From contig CAMAWS010000066.1 in the NCBI GenBank assembly GCA_945861845.1, positions 1 through 10,742 on the forward strand: a stretch of 10,742 nucleotides of DNA, in the 5' to 3' direction. Positions 22-10,541 of the stretch are shown one piece after another. Positions within the stretch are counted from its first letter, which is position 1. Each line of letters starts with the position of its first letter. A model generated the notes under the pieces. That model had not been told where the DNA came from. It saw nothing but the letters and a program-made list of their open reading frames with translations, and searched no databases. The translations under genes and the position numbers were made by a program. The DNA is from Candidatus Sulfopaludibacter sp. SbA3 (GTDB taxonomy: Bacteria > Acidobacteriota > Terriglobia > 20CM-2-55-15).

Positions 22-105
22 CTCCCCTCCTAAGTTAGGAGGGGTGGCTGCGCCGCCAACAAAATGTGGCGAAGCATCCTTAGAAAGGCGCAGACGGGGT
101 GGTTC
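22..105. repeat. Half copy of the CCCCTCCTAA-type palindromic repeat (copy A)
   Basis: A terminal palindrome with arms CCCCTCCTAA and TTAGGAGGGG around one central base lies at 24-44. It is followed by GGTGGCTG, a variable stretch, and the shared inner motif CAGACGGGGTGGTTC at 91-105. The same order is seen at 4527-4612 and 6422-6506. The mirror half present in the full copy (4527-4704) is missing here. It lies directly upstream of the MazF remnant and may have been involved in breaking it. Confidence 0.75.
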
Positions 106-152
106 TTCAACATCGCGAAGCCACCTTAATGAGCGGATGCAAATGCAAGCCC

Positions 153-326
153 GACGCGAAGCGTGGAGCCTATGGCAAACCTCCTCCCGCTCTCGTCATC
201 CAATCGGATCTATTCGACGAACATCCTTTGGTCACAATCCTGCCGGTAACAAGTGAACTTCGCGACACTCCCCTGTTTCGCATCGCCGTCAACTCCACAT
301 CCGAAAGGTTTTTCTACCCCAGTCAA
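153..326 (+). pseudogene. Remnant of a MazF/PemK-type toxin gene
   Basis: The frame from 153 reads K-R-G-A-Y-G-K-P-P-P-A-L-V-I-Q-S-D-L-F-D, then V-T-I-L-P-V-T-S-E-L-R-D, then P-L-F-R-I. This is the pattern of the first half of MazF-family RNase toxins (GKPRPALVIQSD, then a T-S strand, then APLFRI). Several normal elements are missing. The usual opening strand between R-R-G-D and G-K-P is shortened. The expected N-G-L-x-x-P-S-Q segment has become R-F-F-Y-P-S-Q. The following V-M-V-D-K and C-terminal helix are absent, and the frame ends at a TAA at 375-377. About 58 recognisable codons remain of an expected 105-115, with no paired antitoxin upstream. Family assignment is by motif recall; an inactive remnant is the most likely reading. 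Confidence 0.6.
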
Positions 327-374
327 TTTTTCTCGGCTCGATGGAACGCGTCAGAACTGCCGGACGAATCATGG

Positions 375-380
375 TAAAGT
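375..380 (+). promoter_or_regulatory. Possible -10 hexamer for a leaderless Uma2 transcript
   Basis: TAAAGT ends seven bases before the ATG at 388 and no Shine-Dalgarno precedes that ATG. A -10 box this close would place transcription start at or next to the A of ATG, as in leaderless mRNAs. No convincing -35 box is seen. The assignment is inferred from spacing only. Confidence 0.3.
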
Positions 381-4526: not shown

Positions 4527-4704
4527 CTCCCCTCCTAAGTTAGGAGGGGTGGACGTGCCATCAGGAAGATATTGCCGAAGGCACCCTTCGAAAGGCACGG
4601 ACGGGGTGGTTCTGCATAGGAACCACCCCGTCTGCGCCCTGATAAGGAGGCTTCGCAGCATTTGCTGTTTGGGCACAGCCACCCCTCCTAACTTAGGAGG
4701 GGAG
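4527..4704. repeat. Full 178-bp foldback (MITE-like) element between cpaE and cpaF (copy B)
   Basis: Both ends carry the same palindrome (arms CCCCTCCTAA and TTAGGAGGGG), at 4529-4549 and 4682-4702, facing each other and followed inward by GGTGG. The centre is a 13-bp stem, GACGGGGTGGTTC (4600-4612) with GAACCACCCCGTC (4620-4632), around a 7-base loop. Regions between centre and ends are only partly complementary, so the whole is an imperfect large hairpin. It is the only complete copy in the window; 22-105 and 6422-6524 are half copies. It occupies nearly all of the 229-bp cpaE-cpaF gap and would be transcribed with the operon. No transposase frame is encoded and no clear target duplication was found. 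Confidence 0.9.
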
Positions 4705-5911: not shown

Positions 5912-6559
5912 TCACGGAGCCGAGATCCCCGTTTCCGGGTTCCCTCCTGCGCTCTCAATCTCAACGGTTGTGGAAAACGGCGGTACCTGCAATGGCGGCA
6001 AGCCAAGCATAGGCAGGAAGTGATTAAACTGGTATCCGCTGATGCTGACTGTTACCGAGTCGGGGATGCACTCGGAGCCGCAACCACCGGCACAGGAAAA
6101 GGGCACACTCTCACGCGTGACCGGATCATGCATCCAGTAACTCACCTGGATCTGTATGCCGCCGGTCGCAAGTTGCGGACGATCGGGAAATAGCGGTGCG
6201 TTGGCCTGTATCCAGTTAACCACGTTGGAACCTGACTCATCCTGCCAGCAGTGCGTGCCAGCATACCGGGCGCCCTGCCGCGTGAGTGTAGCGAGGGCGT
6301 GATACGTCCAGCCGATTTCAGCGAATGCGATCAACCCAAGAGTCAGCGGGACGATGCCGGCGACCAGCACCAGGGCCATCTCCACGGTCGCCTGGCCTCG
6401 AGAGCGGGTCTTGGTCCAAGACTCCCCTCCTAAGTTAGGAGGGGTGGCTGTGCCCGTAAAGCAGATGCTGCGCAGCCTCCTTATCAGGGCGCAGACGGGG
6501 TGGTTCGCATACGGAACCACCCCGGCCGTGGCCTTCGTCAGAATGGAATCAAAAATCAT
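5912..6559 (-). CDS. TadE/TadF-like pseudopilin with a repeat-encoded N-terminal extension
   Basis: This 215-aa protein contains the TadE-like start S-R-G-Q-A-T-V-E-M-A-L-V, with G55 followed by X4 and E60. That is the prepilin-peptidase pattern G|XXXXE, leading into a membrane helix at about 61-85. The remaining ~130 residues are a periplasmic domain with four cysteines near 156-164 and 104 (C-A-G-G-C, then C). ATG 6559 lies one base after the upstream stop (TGA-G-ATG), so the start is well placed. Residues about 13-46 are translated from a half copy of the CCCCTCCTAA repeat (P-V-C-A-L-I-R-R-L-R and T-P-P-N-L-G-G). They have no place in the family, where little precedes R-G-Q-A. If the peptidase acts at G55, the extra peptide would leave with the leader. 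TadE versus TadF cannot be settled here. Confidence 0.8.
   Translation of the reverse strand: MIFDSILTKATAGVVPYANHPVCALIRRLRSICFTGTATPPNLGGESWTKTRSRGQATVEMALVLVAGIVPLTLGLIAFAEIGWTYHALATLTRQGARYAGTHCWQDESGSNVVNWIQANAPLFPDRPQLATGGIQIQVSYWMHDPVTRESVPFSCAGGCGSECIPDSVTVSISGYQFNHFLPMLGLPPLQVPPFSTTVEIESAGGNPETGISAP
6422..6524. repeat. Half copy of the CCCCTCCTAA repeat inside the second tadE-like gene (copy C)
   Basis: The terminal palindrome (arms CCCCTCCTAA and TTAGGAGGGG) is at 6424-6444. The central hairpin follows: CGGGGTGGTTC at 6496-6506, a 7-base loop, and GAACCACCCCG at 6514-6524. The far half of the full element is absent. Read on the minus strand it is open in the frame of the tadE-like gene and encodes about residues 13-46. 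The sequences beside it (ACGAAGGCC on the start side, ACCAAGACC on the other) are similar and could be a decayed duplication, but the match is too short to be sure. Confidence 0.85.
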
Positions 6560-7083: not shown

Positions 7084-7106
7084 AATGCGCTCAATGCGCT
7101 CAATGC
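7084..7106. repeat. 9-bp tandem repeat (AATGCGCTC) at the tadG/tadE junction
   Basis: AATGCGCTC occurs twice in full (7084-7092, 7093-7101) and once in part (7102-7106). The tadG stop codon lies inside it, and it sets the distance between that stop and the possible starts of the following tadE. A change in copy number by one unit would keep phase. Confidence 0.7.
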
Positions 7107-8596
7107 AACACGATCCTTCCGACGCCCGGCGACACGCTGCACAAGCCGCCAATCCCGCCACACCGAAGCGGCACCGGGGAGCCGATATATTGTGCACGGA
7201 ACGCCCCGGTGACCAGGGCTGGATTGATTCCCATGACCGTCGCAGGCGACGTCTCCACCAGGAACTGGCGAAAGTTCAGGACGGTGAGCGTATCGCTGGC
7301 ATCCACTACCGGCATGGTCAATATGCGGCGCAGGTTGCCGAAATACTCTGTAGCATAGTCCTGCAAACCCTCCCCGGCTGCGTATGCTTCTCCTCCCCCG
7401 TCCGTGTCCGCAGCAAAGCGGGGCGCCAGGTCGAGGAATTCACCTGCCGCCAGAAGGCTGCACGTGTTTTCCGCCGGATCCACTCCGAACCGCACGTTCA
7501 GGCCGCAAAGAACATCCTGCCCGGACGTCGTGCCTGCGGCGATATTGCCGGCGAGATCCGGATACCCGGTCTCCACAGAATCGATGGAAATGTTCCCGGG
7601 CAGCGCGAGCCCGGGACTGCTGGAGATGACACCGGCGCCCATTTCAAATAGCGAACTGTCAACGCTGAGGTCCTGCGGCCCGCCTGGAACGTGATTCAAA
7701 ATGACGTACTGCACCGCGGCAAGTGTGCCGGCCAACGGCGCCGGCGTCGCGGGGGCGTTGGGCGCCTGCTGGGATGGCGTCAGGAACAACGTATAGAAAC
7801 CTCCGGGCACAAATCCATAGTTCACGGTATCTTCCCCGGCGCCTTGATCGACCACTGCAAGGCCGTCAATTCCGCAAGCCGTGCAAATCGGAGCGCTGAT
7901 ACCGGCTACGGCCGAGGCCGCTATCGTCGGCAAAGTGACAGCGCGATTCAGAAACGGCGCAAACGCGACCGGTGCCTCCGCCGAAATCTGGACCCGCACG
8001 TACTTCGGATAAACGCCGCTTGTCCAGTCGATGCCTCCGCTCAGGCCGGGGTTGACGTTCGCCTGCGCGTCGGCGAGCGTCGAAAAATAAGTCAATTGCG
8101 TGGTTGTCACCAGTCCGGACCCGCCGGCTTCGCCGAGCTGGTTCAATCGCAAATTGAAGCGGTTGTCATTGCCAGTGGTGGAATCAAACGACGCCGTCAC
8201 CTGGTCATCCGCATTGACGATAGCGGCTGCCGTTCCCACCAGGCGCGTCGCGGCGCTCAGGGCCGCAGCATCCGCAGCCGTTTGGAGCTCACCCTGGATC
8301 ACATACAGCCGGCCGAAATCCGTTGCCATCACCAGCAGCCCCAGGAACATCAGGGTAAATAGCGCGAAATAGACCGTGGTAGCGCCTCTTTGGTTGTCCC
8401 TGGCTTTACCCAGTAATTCAAAAATTGCAAATTGGCCATTGGACAAATCCGCATTGGAAATTCGAGATTCAAAATTCGAAATTGGACGAACCGAAGCGGA
8501 ATCTCGAATTTCCAATTTCGAACCTGCAATGCGGATTTGTCCAATGGCCAATCTGCAACTTCCGAATCGTTGGGTAAAACCGTGGTCCCTGTTCAA
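7100..8596 (-). CDS. tadG: TadG-like protein (Tad-domain membrane anchor) with a 63-codon in-frame insertion
   Basis: This 498-aa protein starts at TTG 8596, which overlaps the secretin stop as TTGA and has GGAG (8607-8604) 7 bases upstream. After M-N-R-D come 63 residues encoded by a foldback repeat. The Tad-domain signature then begins: R-G-A-T-T-V-Y-F at 70-77, a membrane helix at about 74-94, and G-E-L-Q-T-A-A-D-A-A-A-L-S-A-A at 102-116, as in TadE/G-like proteins (PF13400 type). There is no glutamate at +5 after G71, so cleavage by prepilin peptidase is not expected. Unlike in the TadE-like proteins, the inserted tail would stay on the mature protein in the cytoplasm. The long C-terminal part (~120-498) is periplasmic, rich in G, A, P and small hydrophobics, with no domain I can name. 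Without the insertion the protein would be 435 aa. Confidence 0.85.
   Translation of the reverse strand: MNRDHGFTQRFGSCRLAIGQIRIAGSKLEIRDSASVRPISNFESRISNADLSNGQFAIFELLGKARDNQRGATTVYFALFTLMFLGLLVMATDFGRLYVIQGELQTAADAAALSAATRLVGTAAAIVNADDQVTASFDSTTGNDNRFNLRLNQLGEAGGSGLVTTTQLTYFSTLADAQANVNPGLSGGIDWTSGVYPKYVRVQISAEAPVAFAPFLNRAVTLPTIAASAVAGISAPICTACGIDGLAVVDQGAGEDTVNYGFVPGGFYTLFLTPSQQAPNAPATPAPLAGTLAAVQYVILNHVPGGPQDLSVDSSLFEMGAGVISSSPGLALPGNISIDSVETGYPDLAGNIAAGTTSGQDVLCGLNVRFGVDPAENTCSLLAAGEFLDLAPRFAADTDGGGEAYAAGEGLQDYATEYFGNLRRILTMPVVDASDTLTVLNFRQFLVETSPATVMGINPALVTGAFRAQYIGSPVPLRCGGIGGLCSVSPGVGRIVLH
8396..8591. repeat. Foldback element with flanking 7-bp direct repeats inside tadG
   Basis: GTCCCTG occurs at 8396-8402 and again at 8585-8591 (CAGGGAC on the coding strand), 189 bp apart. 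Between them is a foldback: arms 8402-8456 and 8527-8581 are complementary over 55 positions with 8 mismatches. They include 26 perfect bases at 8431-8456 and 8527-8552 (starting ATTGGCCATTGGAC). A second inner pair, GAAATTCGAGATTC (8457-8470) with its complement (8499-8512), adds to the stem. The interior has AAATTCGAAATT-type sequence, AT-richer than its surroundings. There is no transposase. The direct repeats look like a target-site duplication, making this a MITE-like insertion. All 63 codons are open in the tadG frame. Confidence 0.85.
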
Positions 8597-9807
8597 GGAG
8601 TTGCTCCGGAGGACTCATGGCCTCGCGGGCCGATAAACGTGGGCAGCGGCGCTGCCGGTGATCGCGGCGCCTGCTCCGGTCCAAGGAAGCCCTCGGGAAA
8701 CTCGGGCAGCGCCGGCGCTGCGCCGGCAGCAAACGGCTTCACGAAATGAGGAGTGATGATAACCAGCAACTCCGAGTTGCTTTTCTGCGTATTCCGGCTG
8801 CGGAACAGATGCCCCAGGATCGGCAAGTCGCCGAGTCCCGGAATCTTGTTCATGACCTGTGTCACGCGGTTGTCAATAAGGCCCGCAATGGCGAAGCTTT
8901 CGCCCTCGCGCAAATCGACCTCCGTTTCAGCCGTTCGCGTGCTGATAGCCGGTATCAGGAAGCCCTGGATCGTCAGAGCATTCGCAAAATCCAGTGCGCT
9001 GACTTCCGGACGCACCTTCAAGTGAATCAGTCCATTCGGCTCCACGGTTGGCGTAAACACGAGGCGCACACCGAATGGGCGGAACTGTACCGTGACGACG
9101 GGAGCGGCTTGTGCGCCGCTGCCGGTACTGCTGATCACCGGGAACGGGAATTCTCCTCCAGCCAGGAAACTGGCCTCGCGGCCGCTGACCGTGATCAGGT
9201 TGGGCTCTGCCAGAATCTCCAGCAGGTTCTTGCTCTGCATGAGGCGCAACGTCGCACCGATGTTTATGTCCGGGCGGAACAGGAATAAGTTCAGAAGGTC
9301 GCTCGCGCTCACCGAGGTGTTTCCCAGGTCAGGTTGCCCGTCGGCTCCCTGGGAGAACTGCAACTGGCCGATTCGCGGAAACTGGAACTGCTGCGTGGTA
9401 GCCGTTCCCAAAAGGCTGTTGTTCACGCTGAACAGGTTCGCTCCCAGCTGGCTCAGGTTGGTGCGATCTATCGTGGCAAACTTCACCTGGAGCATGACCT
9501 GCGGGTTCTCCGTTGGCGGAGCCTGAAGCAGGTTCACCACGGACTCCGCATATGCCGCGGCAATCGCCGCCGCCTGCTTCACGACTTCCGCATCGGTGAC
9601 CACTCCGTTCAGCAGGATGGCGTCCCTGCTGCTCGACACCTCGATCTGTTCGTTTGGAAAGGTTGCGCGCAACTGCTTCTGGATTTCGCTCAAGTCCGGC
9701 TGGACGGTGATTTCGTACGGCGACACACTCTCGCCGTGCCAGATCATGATCGTTGTATTGCCCGGAGCCTTGCCGTTCAACACGACCTCCCGCAGCGACA
9801 CCACCAC
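8593..9807 (-). CDS. cpaC: Tad pilus secretin CpaC/RcpA, truncated at the N-terminus
   Basis: From GTG 9807 there are 404 codons. V-V-V-S-L-R-E-V-V-L-N-G-K-A-P-G (2-16) is the second half of the pilus N-terminal domain (PF13629 type). A BON-like/N1 segment (~32-92) follows. The secretin domain runs from about 180 to 358, with A-E-P-N-L-I-T-V-S-G at 200-209, G-E-F-P-F-P-V at 218-224, I-P-G-L-G-D-L-P-I-L-G-H-L-F-R-S at 322-337 and L-L-V-I-I-T-P-H-F-V-K-P at 347-358. The C-terminal tail is rich in A and P. Family members run about 450-550 aa with a signal peptide; here the signal peptide and first half-domain are missing. The frame is open upstream only to a TAA at 9870-9868, without a start or secretory signal. 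As read it could not reach the outer membrane, so it is probably a damaged gene. Confidence 0.85.
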   Translation of the reverse strand: MVVSLREVVLNGKAPGNTTIMIWHGESVSPYEITVQPDLSEIQKQLRATFPNEQIEVSSSRDAILLNGVVTDAEVVKQAAAIAAAYAESVVNLLQAPPTENPQVMLQVKFATIDRTNLSQLGANLFSVNNSLLGTATTQQFQFPRIGQLQFSQGADGQPDLGNTSVSASDLLNLFLFRPDINIGATLRLMQSKNLLEILAEPNLITVSGREASFLAGGEFPFPVISSTGSGAQAAPVVTVQFRPFGVRLVFTPTVEPNGLIHLKVRPEVSALDFANALTIQGFLIPAISTRTAETEVDLREGESFAIAGLIDNRVTQVMNKIPGLGDLPILGHLFRSRNTQKSNSELLVIITPHFVKPFAAGAAPALPEFPEGFLGPEQAPRSPAAPLPTFIGPRGHESSGATP

Positions 9808-10011: not shown

Positions 10012-10206
10012 ATGAACATCGCAGAACTTATCTTTGAGAAGAGCCGGGGCTTGAGCGAAGAACTTCAGCAGGAAGCGTTGGATTTCGTCGACTTCCTCGC
10101 TGCGCGCCAGAGTACGGCGAAAGACTCTCGTGACTGGACTCGTTTTTCGTCGGAAGCGTTATCGCGACAGTACGCTTCCACAGACGCCGTTTACGATCAG
10201 GATTGA
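10012..10206 (+). CDS. DUF2281-type antitoxin
   Basis: This small 64-aa acidic protein has I-A-E-L-I-F-E-K-S-R-G-L-S-E-E-L-Q-Q-E at 3-21, then A-L-D-F-V-D-F-L-A-A-R at 22-32. That is the amphipathic pattern of DUF2281 proteins (I-Y-x-K-x-x-x-L-P-E-x-L-x-x-E-V-L-D-F-I-E-F-L), small proteins often found before toxin genes. The remaining C-terminal half carries D-W-T-R-F-S and ends D-A-V-Y-D-Q-D, probably the toxin-binding tail. An in-frame extension upstream is possible, but the preceding codons cross the intergenic gap and the start of the divergent secretin, so ATG 10012 is preferred. TGA (10204-10206) overlaps the toxin ATG by one base. Such antitoxins usually repress their own promoter; no operator was identified. 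Confidence 0.75.
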   Translation: MNIAELIFEKSRGLSEELQQEALDFVDFLAARQSTAKDSRDWTRFSSEALSRQYASTDAVYDQD

Positions 10207-10541
10207 TGCCGCGCGCGTACACACAAGGAGACGTTCTTCTCGCGCGGCTGACATTTTCCAGCGGAGAAGGCCAGAAGCGCCGCCCGGTTCTCGTCGCCGA
10301 GGATTTCGGAGACGATGATCTACTCGTGGTACCCATAACGAGCCACGCCGCGCGAACGGAAGGCGACATCGTCCTCTCAGAGTGGAAGGAGGCCGGTTTG
10401 AAACTGCCTTCGACCGTCCGGGTTGAGAAATTTGCAACCATCGAAAAGTCGTGTATCGAGCGGAATTTGGGACGGCTCGCGACCGCCGAATCGGCGGAAT
10501 TCAAAAGGGTGCTCGCGATGGTCTGCCGCCGCTTCCTTTAG
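10206..10541 (+). CDS. MazF/PemK-type mRNA interferase toxin
   Basis: This 111-aa protein has the family layout. It contains G-D-V-L-L-A-R-L at 8-15, the K-R-R-P-V-L-V basic loop and strand at 24-30, and L-L-V-V-P-I-T-S at 39-46, carrying the conserved serine/threonine. D-I-V-L-S-E-W-K-E-A-G-L at 54-65 leads to V-R-V-E-K-F-A-T-I-E-K-S at 71-82 and the closing helix. It would cleave RNA in the cytoplasm when not bound by the antitoxin. Length is normal and all blocks are present, so it is probably intact. ATG 10206 is preferred to TTG 10203; it overlaps the antitoxin TGA by one base, with AGGA (10199-10202) three bases upstream, so translation should be coupled. Whether it cuts specific sequences cannot be told from here. 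Confidence 0.8.
   Translation: MPRAYTQGDVLLARLTFSSGEGQKRRPVLVAEDFGDDDLLVVPITSHAARTEGDIVLSEWKEAGLKLPSTVRVEKFATIEKSCIERNLGRLATAESAEFKRVLAMVCRRFL

Follow-up and report, generated by a model that had tools for sequence, protein, structure and literature searches.

A foldback DNA element lies in frame within tadG, a gene of the Tad pilus operon of a soil acidobacterium, directly after codon 5, where it adds 63 codons in front of an invariant glycine. Foldbacks of unrelated sequence are present at the same place in several relatives. It is quite likely that the insert is a MITE-like element which is translated with TadG and tolerated because it would belong to a leader that is either cytoplasmic or cleaved off.

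Genomic context of tadG

The window analysed here (the whole DNA stretch of 10,742 nucleotides) corresponds to contig C66 in a draft genome (G000; 3.31 Mb, 496 contigs, 81% complete). The Tad pilus operon on its minus strand consists of genes for a secretin, TadG and two TadE-like proteins, followed by cpaE-, cpaF-, tadB- and tadC-like genes. The first four genes were named from Pfam matches and the remainder by eye, TadC additionally via the names given to its homologues. The true start of the secretin may be elsewhere than at its listed GTG. A protein 100% identical to the TadC of the window was retrieved (P0241), and a second assembly of the organism may thus exist. Two ORFs of PemK/MazF-type appearance (by eye) are located near the ends of the window (99–377 and 10203–10541). 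The features under discussion are collected in Table 1.

Table 1. Coordinates of the genes and repeat elements discussed in the text (positions in the window)
Feature	Positions	Strand	Remarks
tadG	7100..8596	-	498 aa; starts with a TTG that shares bases with the secretin stop (TTGA); residues 71-117 form the Tad domain
Secretin (CpaC/RcpA-like)	8593..9807	-	Stop codon (8593-8595) shared in part with the tadG start; from ORF and Pfam
Foldback element, 180 bp	8402..8581		Termini GGYTTTACCC; TTCGAAATTGGAAATTC-type motif in the inner arms; related copies elsewhere in the genome
Target-site duplication, copy distal to tadG start (GTTGTCCCT)	8393..8401		Empty site in G001
Target-site duplication, copy next to tadG start (GTGGTCCCT)	8582..8590		Codons 3-5; empty site in G001
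Second foldback family, full copy, 178 bp	4527..4704		CTCCCCTCCTAAGTTAGGAGGGG ends; between cpaE-like and cpaF-like genes
Second foldback family, decayed copy	6422..6530	-	Within the open leader frame of the TadE-like gene 5912-6559; in frame in G001 too

The foldback element and its empty site

The arms of the foldback (8402–8483 and 8500–8581) measure 82 nt each and are 82% complementary. Folded as single-stranded DNA, the region 8396–8591 reached -62.9 kcal/mol, while shuffled sequences gave -23.8 +/- 3.4 kcal/mol (z = -11.6; 0/200 as good). The element begins at base 16 of the gene, and its ends are symmetric, reading GGCTTTACCC and GGTTTTACCC on opposite strands at 8402 and 8581. The initial annotation had described direct 7-mer repeats 189 bp apart as its borders. 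Both were found, at 8396–8402 and 8585–8591; however, given the symmetric ends of the foldback, 9 bp is a better reading of the flush target duplication than 7. This duplication abuts the foldback on both sides and is identical at 8/9 positions. The single mismatch counts against the reading as a MITE-like insertion, as does the presence of both GGYTTTACCC ends in the window copy only. The size of the insert is 180 + 9 = 189 bp, equal to 63 codons. The tadG frame is free of stops across the element; on the same strand two of the three frames are open and the third contains 3 stops, so that openness by itself is weak evidence.

In a metagenome-assembled genome of the same genus (G001), the TadG of which is 82% identical, the same junction is present without the element (TTG AAC AGG GAT CAC CAA CGC GGC). 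TadG starts there as M-N-R-D-H-Q-R-G-A-T-T-V-Y-F, and its TTG also overlaps the secretin stop. A TadG with 94% identity (P0001) begins MNRNRQRGATTVYF and counts 435 aa, exactly 63 residues fewer than the 498 of the window, which again represents the empty site, and P0002 likewise lacks the insert. The arms, the length of 189 bp, the empty site in G001 and the size of P0001 together confirm the in-frame insertion of 63 codons postulated by the initial annotation, and the uninterrupted state which it had reconstructed is seen directly in G001 and P0001. The objection that relatives might share the N-terminal residues without the inverted repeat fails, as the nearest two (P0001 and G001/P0002) do not have these residues. 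In nearer relatives without foldbacks, the distance from the secretin stop to the Tad domain is 8–50 nt (G003 aside), which makes the empty state most likely the ancestral one.

Recurrence at the TadG and TadE leaders

Junctions between secretin and tadG were surveyed at 52 loci, from which one without a secretin match and three without a match to the N-terminus of TadG were set aside, leaving 48 junctions. Among the 54 genomes with tadG, G006, G144 and G349 were left out as the N-terminus is missing. For G003 a negative distance marks the assigned stop as an artefact; by eye its junction reads GTGA, and it stands outside the NTGA count given below. A weak foldback in G209 (score 19) was counted neither for nor against.

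Foldbacks precede the Tad domain at 4/13 nearer junctions, namely in G000, G009 (two), G019 and G023, five in all. The tadG frame is open through all five, the stop counted in G019 being that of the secretin itself. Each element leaves between one and three of the same-strand frames open, and openness at the DNA level is therefore only modest evidence. At the G009 locus (L012, 1153–1541), two foldbacks follow one another ahead of the TadG domain, and neither interrupts the frame. By blastn, the elements at the TadG and TadE leaders form six groups, one of which joins the TadE element of the window, the intergenic copy between the cpaE- and cpaF-like genes and one element of G009. The insertion in tadG is one of several at the same site, from unrelated elements.

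At the TadE leader, 11 loci were surveyed: an insert is present in three (G000 and G001 sharing one, G019 carrying another kind) and absent from eight. G001 retains the TadE-leader element in frame at a different length, with one arm missing by eye. Eight copies of this second family, two of them with shared flanks, displayed no clear target duplication by eye.

Survey of N-terminal tails

The recurrence was also visible at the protein level, where the best 120 of 143 TadG, 120 of 255 TadE and 120 of 1399 TadC homologues were listed, only part of the TadG and TadC candidates being scored. TadG N-termini numbered 106 in one count and 110 in another because the alignment cut-offs differed. Among these matches, tails of at least 20 aa were found in 32/110 TadG proteins with an aligned N-terminus and in 17/120 TadE proteins. 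TadC from the same operon gave 0/120 long tails, a control unmatched for divergence since its homologues are more conserved than those of TadG and TadE. Within the matches listed, the median TadG tail is 4.5 aa and the long ones extend over 20–178 aa, the longest belonging to P0003. They differ from each other in sequence (by eye).

Such recurrent tails of 20–178 aa could be taken as a sign that the insert was recruited, the repeat-encoded tail giving TadG a new interaction or a functional longer leader. This is very improbable, as the tail sequences differ (by eye, and by blastn of the DNA elements), the median tail among the matches listed is short, and a location before an invariant glycine suggests removal.

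For each long tail it was asked whether degenerate codons could encode an inverted repeat, in comparison with shuffled residues and with body segments of equal length as control. Among the matches listed, an inverted repeat was encodable at p < 0.05 in 18/32 long TadG tails and 4/17 long TadE tails, while body segments scored 0/32 and 0/17; the other 14/32 and 13/17 long tails displayed no significant coded inverted repeat. As evidence, this protein survey is stronger than frame openness at the DNA level.

Probable translation of the insert

The element is most likely translated within an N-terminal leader of about 70 residues, as judged from a start overlap that is common to near relatives and from the absence of any start codon after the element. 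The secretin stop and the tadG start overlap as NTGA at 10/13 nearer junctions (12/48 overall). Within the first 96 codons of the tadG frame, ATG, GTG or TTG occur at codons 1, 16, 28 and 51 and then from codon 83 onward, in the helix region; codons 16, 28 and 51 are TTGs inside the element. In none of G000, G009, G019 and G023 does such a codon lie between the last element and the conserved glycine. A start downstream of the element, which the initial annotation had named as its own possible refutation, finds no ATG, GTG or TTG before the helix, but any of the three TTGs within the element could initiate. These, and the fact that the proposed start is itself a TTG, weigh against full-length translation. 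So does the long hairpin near the start: an RNA hairpin of -134 kcal/mol over 260 nt is predicted 12 nt past the start codon, and with such a stable fold translation may be inefficient.

Gene callers often extend ORFs. The long N-terminus could accordingly be an annotation artefact, with the element extragenic and translation starting inside or after it. The two same-strand frames open by chance, the internal TTG codons and the start codons within the elements of G009, G019 and G023 would all agree with this. The NTGA overlap is absent in G009 and G019, and in G009 the first in-frame ATG falls within the first foldback, so that this element is at most partly translated and only the second is fully inside the ORF. 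For REPs at the amino ends of ORFs, excerpts of PMC3733652 indicate that many may be extragenic. An extragenic position is nevertheless unlikely for the tadG element. Besides the missing start codons between element and glycine and the NTGA overlap at most nearer junctions, Met is absent from the second half of the tail in 15/18 inverted-repeat TadG tails (matches listed). Internal starts amount to 8/110 for TadG, 13/120 for TadE and 10/120 for TadC among the matches listed. The 32 long open TadG tails outnumber the 8 internal starts with a binomial p of 2e-9 against 1/3 (2e-4 when only the 18 inverted-repeat tails are considered; matches listed), under the assumption that an out-of-frame insertion shows up through an internal start; any that lie upstream of a new start would escape this count. 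Taken together, these data make the extragenic reading less probable.

Leader, glycine and prepilin peptidase

The residue at position -1 is glycine in all TadG matches listed, with long (32/32) as well as short tails (70/70; 8 internal starts left out), and in all TadE matches listed (17/17 long, 90/90 short; 13 internal starts left out). At position +5, Tyr or Phe is found in TadG and Glu in TadE (matches listed). The glycine at the end of the tail is a predicted prepilin-peptidase site, cleavage being less sure in TadG than in TadE since Tyr or Phe replaces Glu at +5. Peptidase_A24 genes were found in 5/5 genomes searched; in G001, G019 and G023 they share a contig with the tad genes, in G000 and G009 they lie on another. 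In the available portion of PMC12075869, the TadE, TadF and TadG homologues of Myxococcus are each given a predicted cleavage site after the leader. Against cleavage of TadG, the title of a reference in that paper names only Flp1, TadE and TadF as TadV-matured in Actinobacillus (PMC12075869).

The glycine at -1, the Peptidase_A24 genes and the Myxococcus homologues suggest that the insert most likely lengthens a leader which is cytoplasmic or removed. The initial annotation had placed a repeat-encoded tail in front of the membrane helix; this position holds, and the tail is probably part of the leader peptide, cleaved or cytoplasmic. Class-III (prepilin) leaders of Tad minor pilins have the same Gly at -1 before a hydrophobic helix, and TadE shares their Glu at +5. 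The usual class-III prepilin leader is far shorter than the 20–178 residues found here.

These observations fit a mechanism in which a non-autonomous MITE-like foldback entered after codon 5 of tadG, duplicating the 9 bp of codons 3–5 and adding 63 codons in frame, as the empty site in relatives shows; these codons would be read as part of the N-terminal leader. The stretch before the invariant Gly71 would be a cytoplasmic leader, probably removed by the prepilin peptidase or without a role in the pilus, and an insert would be tolerated because everything before Gly71 belongs to it, as deduced from the glycine at -1 and from the work on TadE, TadF and TadG homologues. As tadG starts on the secretin stop, this leader is the stretch of the junction that takes inserts most easily, and an insert there must hold the frame or disturb TadG. 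In-frame inserts would survive, and such a frame filter would explain the unrelated foldback families at this point in several relatives. The insertions at this spot suggest that the start of TadG accommodates DNA of this kind harmlessly.

Element family and possible mobiliser

Searching the own genome with the tadG element produced 12 alignments spread over 8 contigs, a figure that includes the window and counts some places on both strands. The copies on C20 and C130 are foldbacks. The copy on C124 is a single arm; it and its apparent orthologue in G001 both start at the terminal base with which the window copy begins. Copies inside and between genes, which the initial annotation had proposed to count, could be assigned in part: the C130 copy lies between two Pfam-recognised proteins, and stop-to-stop ORFs of 100–181 aa overlap the copies on C20, C124 and C145. 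The C20 and C124 copies each lie beside one Pfam-recognised protein; the neighbours of the C145 copy had no Pfam match. No target duplication was seen by eye at C20 and C130. A search by terminus pattern for an autonomous parent transposon in G000 (81% complete) and G001 returned the known copies and three one-mismatch matches that did not look like repeats by eye.

Variants specific to a copy are mirrored across both arms in the window, C20 and C130 copies, which fits either arm-to-arm conversion or a pairing constraint. Under the latter, and with the very stable hairpin predicted just past the start, the structure could have been kept for a role of the RNA or DNA, for example an mRNA fold at the secretin/tadG boundary that sets product ratio or stability, the peptide being a side effect. 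This appears improbable, slightly more so than an extragenic element. Arm-to-arm conversion may equally produce mirrored variants; relatives have unrelated sequences at the same place, and 78/110 TadG homologues are without a 20-aa tail (matches listed). Further, the TadE-leader element of G001 keeps its frame open although one arm short by eye, and no Rfam family matches the window.

A RAYT/Y1 transposase was considered as mobiliser and rejected. Y1_Tnp was found at 23 loci in 11/13 genomes, and a strong foldback (score 18 or more) at only one of these loci, of another kind; the detector used recovers known elements. At a laxer score of 13, foldbacks appeared at 10/23 loci, mostly weak, and none of the ten belongs to the family of the window (by eye). 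No foldback was detected near the sole Y1_Tnp found in G000. The only strong foldback adjoining a Y1_Tnp gene is located in G019 (L082, 1854–1960) and has GAGCCGCGAGCGTAAGCGAGCGG-type arms.

Relation to known palindromic elements

Translated selfish palindromes are best known from Rickettsia, across many genes. Those elements are the nearest precedent for the tadG insert, which is likewise a palindrome situated in frame within a gene and would be translated as they are. According to excerpts of PMC2229807 and PMC10969869, Rickettsia palindromic elements are about 100–150 bp long, occur as several families per genome, and are translated as in-frame inserts of genes that are otherwise normal. 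The best reading by analogy is that the tadG insert would work in the same way, the likeness being drawn from these descriptions; the host phylum is another one. Rickettsia elements reside in many unrelated genes, whereas in the present case a single location, the leader of TadG or TadE, contains several elements that are unrelated to each other.

With MITEs the tadG element has in common the terminal inverted repeats, the target-site duplication with its empty site, and several dispersed copies. ERIC/RU-1, Correia/NEMIS and YPAL, as far as described in parts of PMC2229807, are likewise small foldbacks that are non-autonomous, duplicate their target and have open frames fused to genes. Judged by these descriptions, the tadG element differs in having no 5'-TA ends, a 9-bp duplication and no parent transposase found.

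REP/BIME elements with HuH (Y1) transposases include class 3 TnpAY1 of Acidobacteria and Planctomycetes; Acidobacteria are reported to contain high-copy secondary structures, of which Solibacter usitatus has about 600, and REPs inserted in frame are described within tnpA-REP genes (all from excerpts of PMC6006769). As described there, REP/BIME adjoin the transposase gene and have a foot of the form CnGA or GT[AG]G, whereas repeats of the tadG family flank a Y1 transposase gene at none of the 23 loci in 11 genomes (by eye). A small precedent for recurrent insertion at one site is recB of two Xanthomonas species, where different REPs lie at about the same site (PMC3733652, in part).

Among literature titles, with subscription papers mostly uncovered, no report of such leaders or of unrelated families in one leader was found. 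The gathering of unrelated element families in one leader seems to be new here. It is tentatively proposed, with chances somewhat below even, that selfish palindromes find a safe harbour in the leaders of Tad minor pilins generally across Acidobacteriota, unrelated families landing there repeatedly, being translated into leaders as long as about 180 residues and being removed from the mature pilin by the prepilin peptidase. If true, the cost to the cell would be little and selection for the frame would protect the element.

At this single gene position, about a hundred relatives can be compared, some empty and some filled with unrelated elements. It can consequently serve to test how mobile DNA is filtered by selection for the frame, and what length a prepilin leader can attain. 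Long repeat-like N-termini of TadG and TadE in the databases may be real leaders and not bad gene calls.
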